Assembly: GCF_900403705.1 (NCBI RefSeq)
Contig: NZ_OUNR01000002.1
Location: forward strand, 1-64,000
Direction: 5' to 3'
Length of the DNA: 64,000 nucleotides
Origin: Nitrospira lenta
GTDB taxonomy: Bacteria > Nitrospirota > Nitrospiria > Nitrospirales > Nitrospiraceae
Under the pieces are notes generated by a model. It searched no databases, was not told where the DNA came from, and worked only from the letters and a program-made list of their open reading frames with translations. Positions 3,179 to 45,714 of this stretch are shown piece after piece. Made by a program: the position numbers and the translations under genes. Position 1 is the stretch's first letter. The number at the start of each line of letters is the position of its first letter.

Positions 3179-3820
3179 TCATAGATCCTCTTCCATGAAA
3201 TCAAGCTCCTGTGGCCCACCAATCTTGCTAAATAATGGGCTGCGACAATTCGAGCTCAATGATAGGCGATAGTGAAGCACACCTATGTACTTCGTGACCA
3301 TTTTGCGCAGCCGTTTCCCTTTCCATTCAGAATCAATTGGCCACACAGCCATAAATCGAGTATCCATCCTAGCTGAGGAAACAATGGCTCGCTGATCTGA
3401 TCTATAACCAAATGCATACCTCCAGCTAGACTCACGGATGTAGAGATCCTGATCCGTAAACGCAATGAGGGTGGAATTGGGTTCCCAGGCGGCCGTCGCT
3501 TGCTCTAAGATGGCGATGATTTCTTCTGCAACATACTGCCCTCGCTCCTCATTGAATGCGTGCGCTACTACTGCTGGCAGCGGTGCCGAAAGTACGGATA
3601 TGTTCAAGCCATACTTATTTCGATAATAGGTCACGAGCCTATTCAACACGTCCTGAGGAAAGGTGCCAATCGGCACAAAATAGACCTGACCGATGCCCTG
3701 GAGTGCATTGAGACCGACTGGCACATAAGGTTCTTGTATTAGGCAGGCAACATTCGAAACCTTCCCAAAGTAGAGAAGGAGAATAAATAGGGTAACCTGC
3801 AGCCAGGTAAAATAGCTCAT
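3179..3820 (-). CDS. Archaemetzincin-like protein lacking the zinc-protease motif
   Basis: About 213 aa from ATG at 3820 (a TTG two codons earlier is possible; neither has a clear ribosome site). The N-terminal ~25 residues are hydrophobic and end near a Cys (NVAC), suggesting a membrane anchor or lipoprotein. The rest matches the archaemetzincin layout: VPIGTFPQDVLNRLV, LIAFTDQDLYI, WRYAFGYRS, then KMVTKYIGVLHYRL. In active archaemetzincins this last region carries HExxHxxGxxHC; here no such histidine cluster exists, so proteolysis is unlikely. Non-catalytic members are known in bacteria. Its stop lies next to the transposase relic. Family call moderate to good; role unknown. Confidence 0.65.
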   Translation of the reverse strand: MSYFTWLQVTLFILLLYFGKVSNVACLIQEPYVPVGLNALQGIGQVYFVPIGTFPQDVLNRLVTYYRNKYGLNISVLSAPLPAVVAHAFNEERGQYVAEEIIAILEQATAAWEPNSTLIAFTDQDLYIRESSWRYAFGYRSDQRAIVSSARMDTRFMAVWPIDSEWKGKRLRKMVTKYIGVLHYRLSLSSNCRSPLFSKIGGPQELDFMEEDL

Positions 3821-42260: not shown

Positions 42261-42336
42261 GGCGGTGTAGCTCAGTTGGTAGAGCAGCGGACTCATAAGC
42301 CGCGGGTCTCCCGTTCAATCCGGGACACCGCCACCA
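42261..42336 (+). tRNA. tRNA-Met (anticodon CAU), elongator type
   Basis: 76 nt with encoded ACCA end. Acceptor GGCGGTG/CACCGCC, D arm GCTC/GAGC, anticodon loop CTCATAA, T arm TCCCG-TTCAATC-CGGGA. The G1-C72 pair fits elongator Met; tRNA-Ile2 (lysidine-modified CAU) cannot be excluded from sequence alone. The top anticodon-stem pair next to the loop (A31-G39) is mismatched. Confidence 0.9.
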
Positions 42337-42553: not shown

Positions 42554-42736
42554 GTGATTCTGAACAGGGGGCTGGACAAAACTGAGGTCAGTTGTCCGCA
42601 CTGTTCGTCAGTGGAATGTCGCCGGTCCGTCCGACGTAGCTGGCGAGACTTGTTCTTTCGAATATTTGGCATGTTTCCCTGGCACTGCCATGGGTGCAAG
42701 AAGCGCTTTTATCGGCGGAAACGTTCCCTGATCTAA
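42554..42736 (+). CDS. Small zinc-ribbon protein
   Basis: 60 aa from GTG 42554 (GAGG 5 nt upstream); the same frame stays open upstream to 42489 without another start codon. VSCPHCSSVECRRSVRRSWRD, then FPWHCHGCKKRFYRR: two CxxC pairs flanking a basic stretch, matching small zinc-ribbon proteins of unknown function common in proteobacteria. Stands alone. Confidence 0.6.
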   Translation: MILNRGLDKTEVSCPHCSSVECRRSVRRSWRDLFFRIFGMFPWHCHGCKKRFYRRKRSLI

Positions 42737-42816: not shown

Positions 42817-43828
42817 TCACCCGAGTGTTGCCAGCAAGCCCCCTACCGACTTCTGAATCAATATCACATAGGCGTCGATATCGTAGGCAATAGTGCCCTC
42901 GCCCTCTGCCACGGCACGCACGCGATCTTCAGGCAATGCCGCTTTACTCTGGCAGATCACATAGTGAACGGTCTCTCCCGGCTGCACCGGCACACCACGA
43001 CGCTGAAGCTCTTTTGCCGCAATGCTGGTGTGGGTGGCATGACGATAGTCCTCCGGCACTTGAGTCAACCTCTTTCCGATCACCACTTCGCCAATCGACG
43101 CGCGCCCCTCGCGCAGATAGCGGCAATAGTCCTCCGTTAAGGCCTCGATCTCCGGAATCCGTATCCGCAACTCCGCAATCGTCTGCCGCTGCACCATCTC
43201 TGATTGAAACCGCTTCACAATGAGCGGGGCATCGGATCGCCGCACTTCGAGTCCGCACACCTTCATCCGCCCATTGTCGAACAGTCCAACGAACTGATTG
43301 TGCACCGGCATACGCGGATTGACGCGAGACGGAAGAAAACTGATCCAGCGATACAGGCCTTCGACGACAATCGGCAATTGTGTCTGCGCCCTGATATCGG
43401 CCACCAACCGGTCGTAGGCGTCTCGCCCGGGGCCTCGCTTCTGCAACCAGAGCGAATCGACGATGGCGTGCAGAAAACGAAAGCCCTGGGACTCGGCAAT
43501 CTCTTTGGCTCGCAGCAACACCTCGCGGCTATAGGCCGTGACCGCCTCATGCGATTCAATCCTCTCAACGCGCGCATTCTTGTAGCCGAGAGAGCCGAAC
43601 GATACGACCAATCGCCACTTCAGCGCCGTTTGGCGCTGAAGCGATGCTCTGACGCATCGCTTCAGCGGACGCCATCTTGAGCTGCTGTTTATACTGCGTT
43701 CGTTTGGCAAGAAACGGGGCCAGCATCCGGGGAATCAATCCCTGTGAGATCCGGCAGGTGTGATGGGCGATCTCGGGACTCCAATACCGTTCAGGCAACC
43801 TCCCAGACCTAACCTGCCTCTCGATCAT
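42817..43828 (-). pseudogene. Truncated, frameshifted family-B DNA polymerase (PolB-like)
   Basis: Two minus-strand frames join into the C-terminal ~340 residues of a bacterial family-B polymerase: ERYWSPEIAHHTCRISQGLIPRML then, after a frame change near 43640, RQTALKWRLVVSFGSLGYKN (fingers helix), SREVLLRAKEIAESQGF, FRFLHAIVDSLWLQK (the DSLW palm motif) and the thumb (FQSEMVQRQTIAELRIR). The exonuclease domain and half the palm (over 400 residues) are missing. A perfect 14-bp inverted repeat sits exactly at the frameshift. Non-functional. Confidence 0.75.
43634..43667. repeat. Perfect 14-bp inverted repeat at the polymerase frameshift
   Basis: CGCTGAAGCGATGC, loop TCTGAC, GCATCGCTTCAGCG. 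It replaces the normal linker codons before QRQTALKW and coincides with the change of frame. Confidence 0.6.
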
Positions 43829-44293
43829 TCGGCTCTTCCTCAAGCCTGATAGTCCCCTGGCCCTGCACGTCACTCACACGAATAACACGATCCGCCTGGC
43901 CACGGAGTTGGTCGATGAATCGATGACGTGAAGGCATGACCGCCGGTATCGGAGGACAGAGACACACGAGCACATACCCACGCTGGGCCATCAGACGCAG
44001 ATTCTGCATCATTAGACCAGCCAGCCGTGGACTTCCTGAGATGGTACGGTCTCATCGTAAAACGTTTCAAACAGCCCGGAGACAACGGCGATTCTGGACT
44101 GATACCGCATCAACGCCTCCTCCAGACAATCCGATACCAACCGCTCCATTTGATGACAGGTGAACGCGCGGGCAACGTGAACCAGAGAGAGAATCCTCCG
44201 AGGCGTTTGGCGGTGTGCTCTGGCCAATCGCCCAATCACAAAGAGGTCGAACGTGTTGGCCCCGTCAAGATACACCACCGGCTCTCCAGTCAA
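43809..44293 (-). pseudogene. Frameshifted RecA-like ATPase of the SOS/PolB cassette
   Basis: Minus-strand frames read PVVYLDGANTFDLFVIGRLARAHRQTPRRILSLVHVARAFTCHQME and, after a stop at 44012, MMQNLRLMAQRGYVLVCLCP and DQLRGQADRVIRV. Together they match RecA/RadA-like ATPases that accompany family-B polymerase genes; the Walker region seems to lie in or before 44293. The two parts are out of frame by one or two bases near 44012. It overlaps the polymerase remnant by 20 nt, as in an intact operon. Confidence 0.6.
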
Positions 44294-44481
44294 GGCACAA
44301 TACCAACGGATAACCAGGCAACACCATCACGCTGTGAGCAGTCTGAAAAGGGATCCGGGCATGACGCAACGGCAGGAGCCATTCACTGAGGCATCGGTTC
44401 GTTTCCGACATGTCGGCGGATGATCCAGCCCATCAGGAAACAGCACTAGACTTGATGCAGTCGCCGACATTTCTCTCTCCG

Positions 44482-44664
44482 TTACCCGCAACAGCCCGCG
44501 CTAAACACCTGCCGCTGACGATAGGCATTCCAGCAGGTCGCACAAAGCTCCACCGTCGAATGGGTCGCGACATCGACACAGGCCATGCGCCGGTCGACAA
44601 GCGCACCACAGTCTGCACAGGACCCGCTCACAACACGATCGACATTACGCTCTTGAACGACCAT
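44482..44664 (-). CDS. Small cysteine-rich protein of the SOS cassette
   Basis: 60 aa from ATG 44664, 6 nt after AAGGTGG. Two CxxC pairs (GSCADCGALVD, ELCATCWNAYR) and a third cysteine-bearing end (SAGCCG), consistent with a treble-clef or zinc ribbon. Overlaps the upstream 82-aa gene by 20 nt, so the two are translated together. No named family. Confidence 0.6.
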   Translation of the reverse strand: MVVQERNVDRVVSGSCADCGALVDRRMACVDVATHSTVELCATCWNAYRQRQVFSAGCCG

Positions 44665-44893
44665 GAGACACCACCTTTGTGTTAGGGCGCACGTTGCGAT
44701 TACACACCGTCGACATATATTCCTGTTCAGATCTGCTCCCCACCAGATTGCGCCACAACCGGATCGGCAACGGCGCAACCTTCGTGTGTCCGAGTTCCCA
44801 TTGCACCTCGCGGAGCTGCCCGTTCAGCGAATCAATCGTCCGTTCGAGAGAGACTAACCGCTCCGTCACCAATGTTCGTCCACTTGTCAGCAT
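44645..44893 (-). CDS. Small coiled-coil protein of the SOS cassette
   Basis: 82 aa from ATG 44893, preceded by AAGGAGGAG. N-terminal helix with heptad pattern (LVTERLVSLERTIDSLNGQLREVQWEL), then a basic tail. Lies 20 nt downstream of the LexA-like repressor on the same strand and overlaps the next small gene. Function unknown; position suggests DNA-damage control. Confidence 0.6.
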   Translation of the reverse strand: MLTSGRTLVTERLVSLERTIDSLNGQLREVQWELGHTKVAPLPIRLWRNLVGSRSEQEYMSTVCNRNVRPNTKVVSHGRSRA

Positions 44894-44912
44894 GGTCTCC
44901 TCCTTGGTTGAA

Positions 44913-45458
44913 CTAAATCGCACAATGACGAATGACGCCGATCAATAGCCCTTCGATATGGAAATGATCGTTCGGCCCAACAATGATCGGCTGCATCGCC
45001 GCGTTGGCCGGATGCAGTTCGATGTGCGTCTCTTTCTTGAAGTAGGTTTTGATCGTCGCGTCCTGATTCACCAGGGCAACGACCGTCTGCCCGTTGCGGG
45101 CATGCTCCTGCTTGCGCACGATCACCAGATCACCGGGCAAAATACCGTCCTCTTTCATCGACTCCCCTTTCACACGCAGCGCAAAGGTATCGCCCCCACG
45201 CAACATGCTCGGCGGAACGTCGATCAGATCGGATTGCGGCACGGGTTCAATCGGAGATCCGGCCGCTACGATTCCCGCCATGGGAATTTCCGACCGGCGC
45301 TGAAGCTGCTCTAACGCCACCCGCACCATCCCGGGAATTCGGCGCATCCCGGCTTCATACCGCGCCACCGACACACGGGTTGTGCTCAACGCCTCAGCCA
45401 ATTGCTGCTGCGTCAGCCCCAATCCTTCTCGAATCCGCTTTAGATCGCTCGACTTCAT
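44913..45458 (-). CDS. LexA-like repressor (XRE helix-turn-helix plus S24 self-cleavage domain)
   Basis: 181 aa. N-terminal XRE helix-turn-helix (about 5-50: LTQQQLAEALSTTRVSVARYE) instead of the LexA winged helix. The S24 domain follows with cleavage site A66-G67 (IVAAGSP), catalytic S100 (GESMKEDG) and K137 (DATIKTYF), all intact, so RecA-stimulated self-cleavage is predicted. A perfect palindrome directly upstream is its probable operator. It heads the cassette of two small genes and the decayed RecA-like and PolB genes. Could also be a phage-type repressor. Confidence 0.88.
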   Translation of the reverse strand: MKSSDLKRIREGLGLTQQQLAEALSTTRVSVARYEAGMRRIPGMVRVALEQLQRRSEIPMAGIVAAGSPIEPVPQSDLIDVPPSMLRGGDTFALRVKGESMKEDGILPGDLVIVRKQEHARNGQTVVALVNQDATIKTYFKKETHIELHPANAAMQPIIVGPNDHFHIEGLLIGVIRHCAI

Positions 45459-45460
45459 GA

Positions 45461-45477
45461 TGTAACCAATGGTTACA
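45461..45477. promoter_or_regulatory. Palindromic operator of the LexA-like repressor
   Basis: TGTAACC, AAT, GGTTACA: perfect 7-bp arms with a 3-nt spacer, ending 3 nt upstream of the repressor start codon, where it would block transcription or translation initiation. No Shine-Dalgarno is visible between it and the ATG. Confidence 0.65.
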
Positions 45478-45714
45478 CAACAGAATCGCCTCTGTCAAGC
45501 AGAAGAATCCTGATATTTCTCCTAAAAATTCGAGCATCTTGCGCATAAGGCCTGTGCCAATCGCAGCACTAACTACGCACAAGGCACGCTGTCAGCTGGC
45601 CGGCGACGGCACGCCCATCCCGCAACGCAGGCAATGGTGCAAGCAGAGTTATCCGTAGAAGCTGAGGAGTTCAACCGGAAGAGTGAACGGTAAACTAGAA
45701 GAAGAGCGATGCCG

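Follow-up and report, generated by a model that had tools for sequence, protein, structure and literature searches.

A lexA-headed PolB2 mutasome operon of Nitrospira lenta has probably lost its polymerase tail and kept a three-gene head

We analyzed a 64,000-nucleotide (nt) stretch of the Nitrospira lenta genome (RefSeq assembly GCF_900403705.1, contig NZ_OUNR01000002.1, positions 1 to 64,000; hereafter the window), in which an earlier note made from the sequence had described a decayed SOS mutagenesis cassette. Our analysis points, with a probability of about 0.7, to a lexA-headed PolB2 mutasome operon whose tail was lost by deletion and frameshift and whose autoregulated head, made up of lexA and two small genes (small1 and small2), would still be functional. 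In the literature, the PolB2 mutasome comprises the polymerase PolB2, the small helical protein PPB2, which begins with MGRT, and the RadA homologue iRadA, which lacks the ATPase site (PMC11791011), and lexA lies in the same predicted operon in some bacteria, such as Leptospirillum ferriphilum (PMC4104785). The decayed half of the window locus belongs to this known kind. We compared it across 79 genomes of the genus, in which G000 denotes the window genome and relatives and loci carry labels beginning with G and L.

On the minus strand, a TTGACA element, an operator, the repressor gene, small1, small2, a disrupted RecA-like gene and the remnant of a PolB gene, which ends at 42817, follow one another (Table 1); sequence and open reading frames (ORFs) confirmed the gene order, the single direction and the overlapping ends that the earlier note had reported. 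Its claim of a LexA-like repressor is borne out by HTH_3 and Peptidase_S24 domains in Pfam and by the NCBIfam LexA model TIGR00498 (125.1 bits against a cut-off of 110.95, matching residues 44-179 only). The Ala-Gly bond of self-cleavage and the Ser and Lys residues line up with solved LexA structures. The LexA winged-helix DNA-binding family found no Pfam match in the repressor, whose DNA-binding domain is of the phage-repressor type (HTH_3). Between the window and five sisters, the ratio of nonsynonymous to synonymous rates (dN/dS) of lexA is only 0.03-0.05.

The palindromic operator, likewise claimed beforehand, is exact; at ≤2 mismatches, shuffled windows gave a mean of 0.06 matches, and 5 of 100 shuffles gave at least one. 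We classified repressors 68-100% identical to that of the window over nearly full length as type A and those 51-61% identical as type B, and read 30 type-A loci (L018-L047). The operator lies immediately upstream of lexA in all 30 (exact in 15, with one change in 8 and two changes in 7), and in the listed type-A loci a TTGAC stands at about the same distance upstream of lexA as in the window, as judged by eye. An automated promoter scan with a spacing rule of 16-18 nt did not include the TTGACA of the window among its calls. Because the operator overlaps the likely -10 element and ends 2 nt before lexA, repressor binding would block the whole operon, including lexA itself. From what is known of the family, we expect that the repressor binds the palindrome across the promoter and start region and thereby holds itself and both small genes low. 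Upon DNA damage, a RecA filament would drive its cleavage at Ala66-Gly67 through Ser100 and Lys137, and this self-cleavage would release and induce small1 and small2. Before its loss, the PolB2 tail would have been co-induced, for translesion synthesis.

The two small genes, whose ORFs of 82 and 60 codons are counted from likely ATGs, preserve their motifs (Table 1) over 21 loci. Comparison of the window with G072, G084, G047 and G022 yielded dN/dS values of 0.12-0.20 for small1 and 0.07-0.20 for small2; against G052 the values were 0.13 and 0.45, and G005, G044 and G057, compared with one another at their type-A loci without a tail, gave 0.03-0.05 and 0.13-0.21. These ratios indicate purifying selection on both genes. 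LexA, small1 and small2 match their G084 counterparts in number of codons, and all three frames are open behind the exact operator, in agreement with the earlier view that this part of the cassette is intact. Pfam contained no family for small1 or small2 (searched as longer ORFs), and the best PHROGs match was a family of unknown function for small2 (E 0.0041). The cysteines of small2 make it a possible metal binder, and an N-terminal helix is predicted for small1 in a low-confidence model; single-sequence structure models were poor for both (predicted local distance difference test scores of 64.8 for small1 and 54.4 for small2).

The tail presents the opposite picture. Measured against the intact copy at the same site in G084, the RecA-like gene carries deletions of 1, 29 and 1 nt, all of them frame-breaking, and in the window G084 position 1927 directly abuts position 3416, which leaves ~1.49 kb missing. 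This deletion removed PPB2 entirely, together with the extreme end of iRadA and PolB2 residues 1-375, and motif A (near residue 342 of a 703-aa relative) went with them; motif C (residue 480 of the intact relative) survives as IVDS. The window coordinate of the junction also ends the match to G072, G047 and G052. Behind it, the PolB2 remnant has a 1-nt insertion near 43640, yet a 297-aa ORF remains open in its 3' part. The remnant matches NF004416 (PRK05761) with E 4.2e-55, under the full-length cut-off as expected for a fragment. The frameshifted ATPase and the polymerase with a lost half and a changed frame were thus correctly recognized in the earlier note, which could not reveal the further deletion of the whole PPB2 gene. 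The label "RecA-like ATPase" does not hold, since a GxxxxGK[ST] P-loop is absent from the last 240 residues of all 14 RecA-like proteins of relatives; judged by its sequence, the gene represents an inactive RadA homologue (iRadA) rather than a working ATPase.

Substitutions in the remnant are consistent with these lesions: it differs from an intact relative by 30.5 nonsynonymous and 53.5 synonymous changes, compared with 15 and 54 between two intact relatives, and a hand split assigned 26:34 (nonsynonymous:synonymous) to the window branch versus 15:54 (p = 0.013). The decay looks recent, as the remnant frame is still open. An insertion at a palindromic stretch near 43600-43670 was considered and rejected, the stretch being ancestral PolB2 sequence. 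A mobile origin was likewise discarded: no viral-contig relatives of the PolB2 remnant or small2 were found by a search sensitive to close relatives only, the plasmid records that matched PolB2 (122) or LexA (295) were all <60% identical, and small2 gave a single plasmid match at E 0.4.

The same site in sister genomes places these lesions in context. Three ABC-transporter genes (an ATPase with a TOBE domain, a permease and a binding protein; modABC by domain reading) lie upstream of lexA in G000, G084, G085, G072, G047, G052 and G022, and the genes past the tail are common to the window, G084 and G022, and to G072 on a separate contig. Beside the same ABC-transporter neighbours, iRadA-PPB2-PolB2 is intact behind lexA-small1-small2 in G084 and G085. 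In G052, PPB2 is cut near residue 69 and followed directly by the last ~90 residues of PolB2 (from ~611); in G047, PolB2 stops after residue 469, well inside the contig. Hence, six tail-bearing loci contain three different disruptions (G000, G052 and G047), and lexA, small1 and small2 are open in all six. The tail of G072 ends at a contig edge, and its other contig has a full-length PolB2. G022, read on a single contig, has the three-gene head, one operator within 1 mismatch and no PolB2 match, with about 180 bp from the end of the small2 match to the tRNA region shared with the window.

Table 1. Features of the lexA-headed locus in the window.
Feature	Position	Strand	Remarks
TTGACA, likely -35 element	45493..45498	-	15 nt upstream of operator; from sequence
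Operator TGTAACC-N3-GGTTACA = TGTAACCATTGGTTACA, exact palindrome	45461..45477	.	2 nt before lexA start; covers likely -10
Type-A LexA, 181 aa, HTH_3 + S24 peptidase	44913..45458	-	Ala66-Gly67 bond, Ser100, Lys137
small1, 82 aa	44645..44893	-	conserved C-terminal MSxxCNxxxRxNtK; extended ORF start at 44923
small2, 60 aa	44482..44664	-	CxxCG...CxxCW...RQRQvFxxGCCG; overlaps small1 end
iRadA (RecA/RadA-like) pseudogene	43778..44470	-	1-nt, 29-nt and 1-nt deletions versus G084
Junction of ~1.49 kb deletion	43774..43777	.	by comparison with G084
PolB2 remnant, residues ~376 to ~700 of 703-aa relative	42817..43773	-	frameshift near 43640

Small indels are typical of some sequencing platforms, and the frameshifts could in principle be assembly or sequencing errors in an intact cassette. 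We consider this hardly credible. Neither a ~1.49 kb deletion with a clean junction nor a 29-nt deletion arises from base-calling, nor does the raised nonsynonymous rate of the remnant, and the codon numbers shared by the head genes with G084 also argue against it. The comparison with G084 led us to reject error as the cause of the broken tail; because the large deletion is structural, several indels are present and two other genomes are differently disrupted, base-calling does not explain the decay well.

A few further observations were made around these loci. A tRNA-Met gene (42261-42336) lies just past the PolB2 tail, and a Cys-rich 60-aa ORF at 42554-42736 of the window, for which no Pfam family scored above the cut-off, is 88% conserved in L012 beside the polB2 end. 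G095/G072 contain two PolB2 starts on two contigs (L119 5296-5826 and L012 14-2122), 87.6% identical over the first 177 residues, reflecting either two copies or mixed strains in the assembly. In G058, a lexA-small1-small2 locus without a tail occurs, with a short PolB2 remnant on another contig (L130 123-559).

Retention of the head extends across the genus. The window repressor found matches at E ≤1e-10 in 65 of 79 genomes (61 with type A, one with a fragment, three with type B only). Among the 30 type-A loci, small1 is present in 29 and small2 in 27, with L025 (lacking both small genes) and L040 (lacking small2) ending at contig edges. In 12 loci the next 1.5 kb contain a RecA-like gene or its remnant, and in five they contain PPB2; PolB2 sequence without PPB2 occurs only in the window's own copy. 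The earlier note had suggested that the repressor may be kept to control the two small proteins or unlinked targets, and the first of these proposals agrees with a head that persists mostly without a polymerase in related genomes, under purifying selection.

Plain decay offers a different account, in which the operon is eroding from its 3' end, the front is simply next and nothing is retained for a purpose. The apparently recent loss of the tail and the greater variation of the small genes relative to LexA fit such a course. We nevertheless judge it very unlikely, given that the front persists without a tail, at loci whose LexA is 77-82% identical among others, is under purifying selection and has its operator in place at 30 of 30 loci.

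Several observations weigh against a decayed tail behind a head kept for its own function. The PolB2 remnant is far from neutral-looking, and with its 297-aa frame open a fragment may still be made. At the head, change is much faster in the small genes than in LexA (dN/dS up to 0.39 for small1 and 0.45 for small2), and no small2 match was found away from a contig end in L038, one of the 30 loci, or in the additional locus L136 (G071). It may also be the cost of losing a repressor that preserves LexA, in which case the small genes would be hitch-hiking. Some genomes that lack a tail here, G005 and G014 among them, carry PolB2 at another site, behind a lexA of type B; "tail-less" therefore does not mean without PolB2. 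Finally, at ≤1 mismatch the reversed pattern used as a control likewise has one site in the window genome, so that the real operator is not in excess. Because the site count alone shows no excess, the case for the operator rests on its place and conservation.

We then asked what else the repressor might control by scanning the whole window genome (3.76 Mb) for the operator. It contains one exact copy and none with 1 or 2 mismatches. Allowing 3 mismatches adds 34 sites, and at this level the reversed control gives 81 sites versus 35 for the real operator. Of the 34 sites, 26 fall inside mechanically called ORFs (≥90 codons) and 8 between ORFs; three of these 8 lie within 200 bp upstream of an ORF, which is PilX-like in one case, has an FGE-sulfatase domain in another and is unnamed in the third. 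No recognisable SOS gene stands behind any of the 34, the recA promoter being covered only by the whole-genome scan. The LexA model has one other match in this genome, an S24 protein whose gene stands between an SRAP gene and that of a Y-family polymerase with DUF4113. The S24 and polymerase genes are umuDC, and the row of three (L006 739-3156) has no type-A operator within 3 mismatches. Since UmuC and a second Y-family polymerase remain, loss of PolB2 need not abolish translesion synthesis.

Operator sites in relatives extend further. The sisters G084, G085, G072, G047, G052, G022 and G087 have one site each at ≤1 mismatch. Among the 29 new site loci listed, at least 10 are linked to lexA, and at least four (L052, L065, L076, L077) precede a Y-family ImuB-like gene whose product has IMS domains. 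At least 12 (L050, L053, L054, L056, L058, L060-L063, L069, L070, L078) precede, at ~1100-1900, a 118-130-aa protein, which also lies directly behind the site in L066 and L071; the site of L074 precedes neither gene. One member of this protein family was tested against Pfam and matched no family, and PADLOC matched neither it nor small1 or small2. A dnaE2-like gene follows imuB in all 15 loci tested (12 genomes); at L102 2691-4176 (G016) it matches in three separate pieces and may be decaying too.

The second proposal of the earlier note, unlinked targets, thus holds in relatives (imuB-dnaE2 and the ~118-aa gene) and is not supported in the window genome. The repressor could still be kept here for unlinked SOS targets through operators unlike its own, as repressors tolerate variant sites and the same palindrome precedes imuB with dnaE2 and the ~118-aa gene away from lexA in relatives. 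We regard this as unlikely in view of the empty interval at 1-2 mismatches, the three-mismatch sites that precede no recognisable SOS gene and are outnumbered by the control, and the SRAP-umuDC region without a site. Moreover, neither an intact ImuB (no match at 1e-20) nor the 118-aa protein was found in the window genome. At L079 (G000:C16:273431-273568), a 46-residue, 48% ImuB match with three stops was seen at 1e-3, perhaps an imuB remnant. On the preferred reading of a retained three-gene head, the detectable regulon of this lineage may have shrunk to one operon, lexA-small1-small2; in relatives, the same repressor type also heads a polymerase tail, and its operator also lies ahead of imuB-dnaE2 and the ~118-aa gene.

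The distribution of polymerase modules suggests how such a head might operate. ImuB, counted at ≥40% identity (which excluded three genomes with 27% matches only, 41 becoming 38), occurs in 38 of 79 genomes, as does the 118-aa protein; PolB2, including remnants, occurs in 13. ImuB is found in 1 of the 13 PolB2-positive genomes compared with 37 of 66 others (p = 0.0016), and the 118-aa protein in none of the PolB2-positive ones (p = 0.00009), both significances being inflated by kinship and unequal completeness. The sole genome with ImuB and PolB2 is G084, whose ImuB is only 45% identical. The place behind lexA-small1-small2 is taken by a RecA-like gene in PolB2 genomes (G084 and sisters) as well as in the ImuB genomes G040, G018, G012, G051 and G081. 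The PolB2-linked copies are 46-47% identical to that of G040 and 38-41% to those of G018, G012, G051 and G081, compared with 40-45% to three iRadA proteins from type-B cassettes and 36-37% to the iRadA of G054. The PolB2-linked copies are therefore especially close to those of ImuB genomes only in part, since four of the latter are at least as distant as type-B iRadA. The common position hints at a single RecA-like gene that serves either polymerase, but the sequence identities leave this undecided. The genus also has another mutagenesis cassette headed by a lexA, at L173 1785-7512 (G018), with a type-B lexA, imuB, a DnaE-type polymerase and a DUF72 gene.

These patterns raise the tentative idea, to which we give slightly less than even odds, that lexA-small1-small2 is the core unit of the Nitrospira SOS response: the small proteins would be its conserved effectors, and interchangeable mutasomes would be attached to it, either PPB2-PolB2 within the operon or unlinked ImuB-DnaE2 sharing the operator, with a RecA-like gene in the same position in both cases. 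Lineages like this one would have lost both mutasomes, and their detectable SOS regulon would consist of a repressor and two uncharacterised small proteins. Nitrospira are important nitrifiers, and their genomes offer a natural experiment in which one repressor-operator pair and the same two small genes occur with a tail that is intact, half-destroyed or absent. The two unstudied protein families may be what stays constant in the output of a bacterial damage response, and the arrangement suggests that polymerase modules are exchanged or lost under a fixed repressor. PolB2 operons with lexA and the phage-repressor-type LexA of Bacteroidetes are known already. As far as literature searches go, three points are new: the conservation of the lexA-small1-small2 head, the operator of this head, and polymerase modules that are exchanged or lost behind it. 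The open-access literature searched yielded nothing combining Nitrospira and PolB2, and matches listed for Nitrospira and "SOS response" included, by title and start of abstract, nothing on this operon.

Known systems provide a frame for comparison. LexA itself shares with the window protein an S24 domain with the Ala-Gly bond, Ser and Lys; its winged-helix DNA-binding domain is replaced here by HTH_3. Bacteroidetes have non-canonical LexA repressors of the phage-repressor type (PMC8565304), in which, as in HdiR, HTH_3 is likewise joined to an S24 peptidase and which control damage-tolerance genes. The window repressor differs from these in phylum and operator and passes the LexA equivalog cut-off with its C-terminal half. 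The ImuA-ImuB-DnaE2 mutasome (PMC12926913, PMC6511836) resembles the present system in that the type-A operator precedes imuB-dnaE2 in other Nitrospira and that a RecA-like gene follows lexA-small1-small2 in some ImuB-bearing ones; it differs in that the window tail was PolB2 and no intact ImuB was found in this genome. PMC12926913 surveys bacterial polymerases and names neither Nitrospira nor lexA in its main text. The closest likeness is to the PolB2 mutasome (PMC11791011, PMC4104785; e.g., the lexA-linked LFML04_0990-0993 of L. ferriphilum), with which the intact sisters share the lexA-headed iRadA-PPB2-PolB2 order. The published MGRT start of PPB2 is present in G084, the first Asp of the DxD motif is replaced as in the window (IVDS; judged by eye), and the RadA homologue lacks a P-loop, as in the relatives of the window. 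Compared with that system, this locus has two extra small genes between lexA and iRadA, and the window, with a frameshifted iRadA and without PPB2 and the first half of PolB2, carries a remnant rather than a working member.

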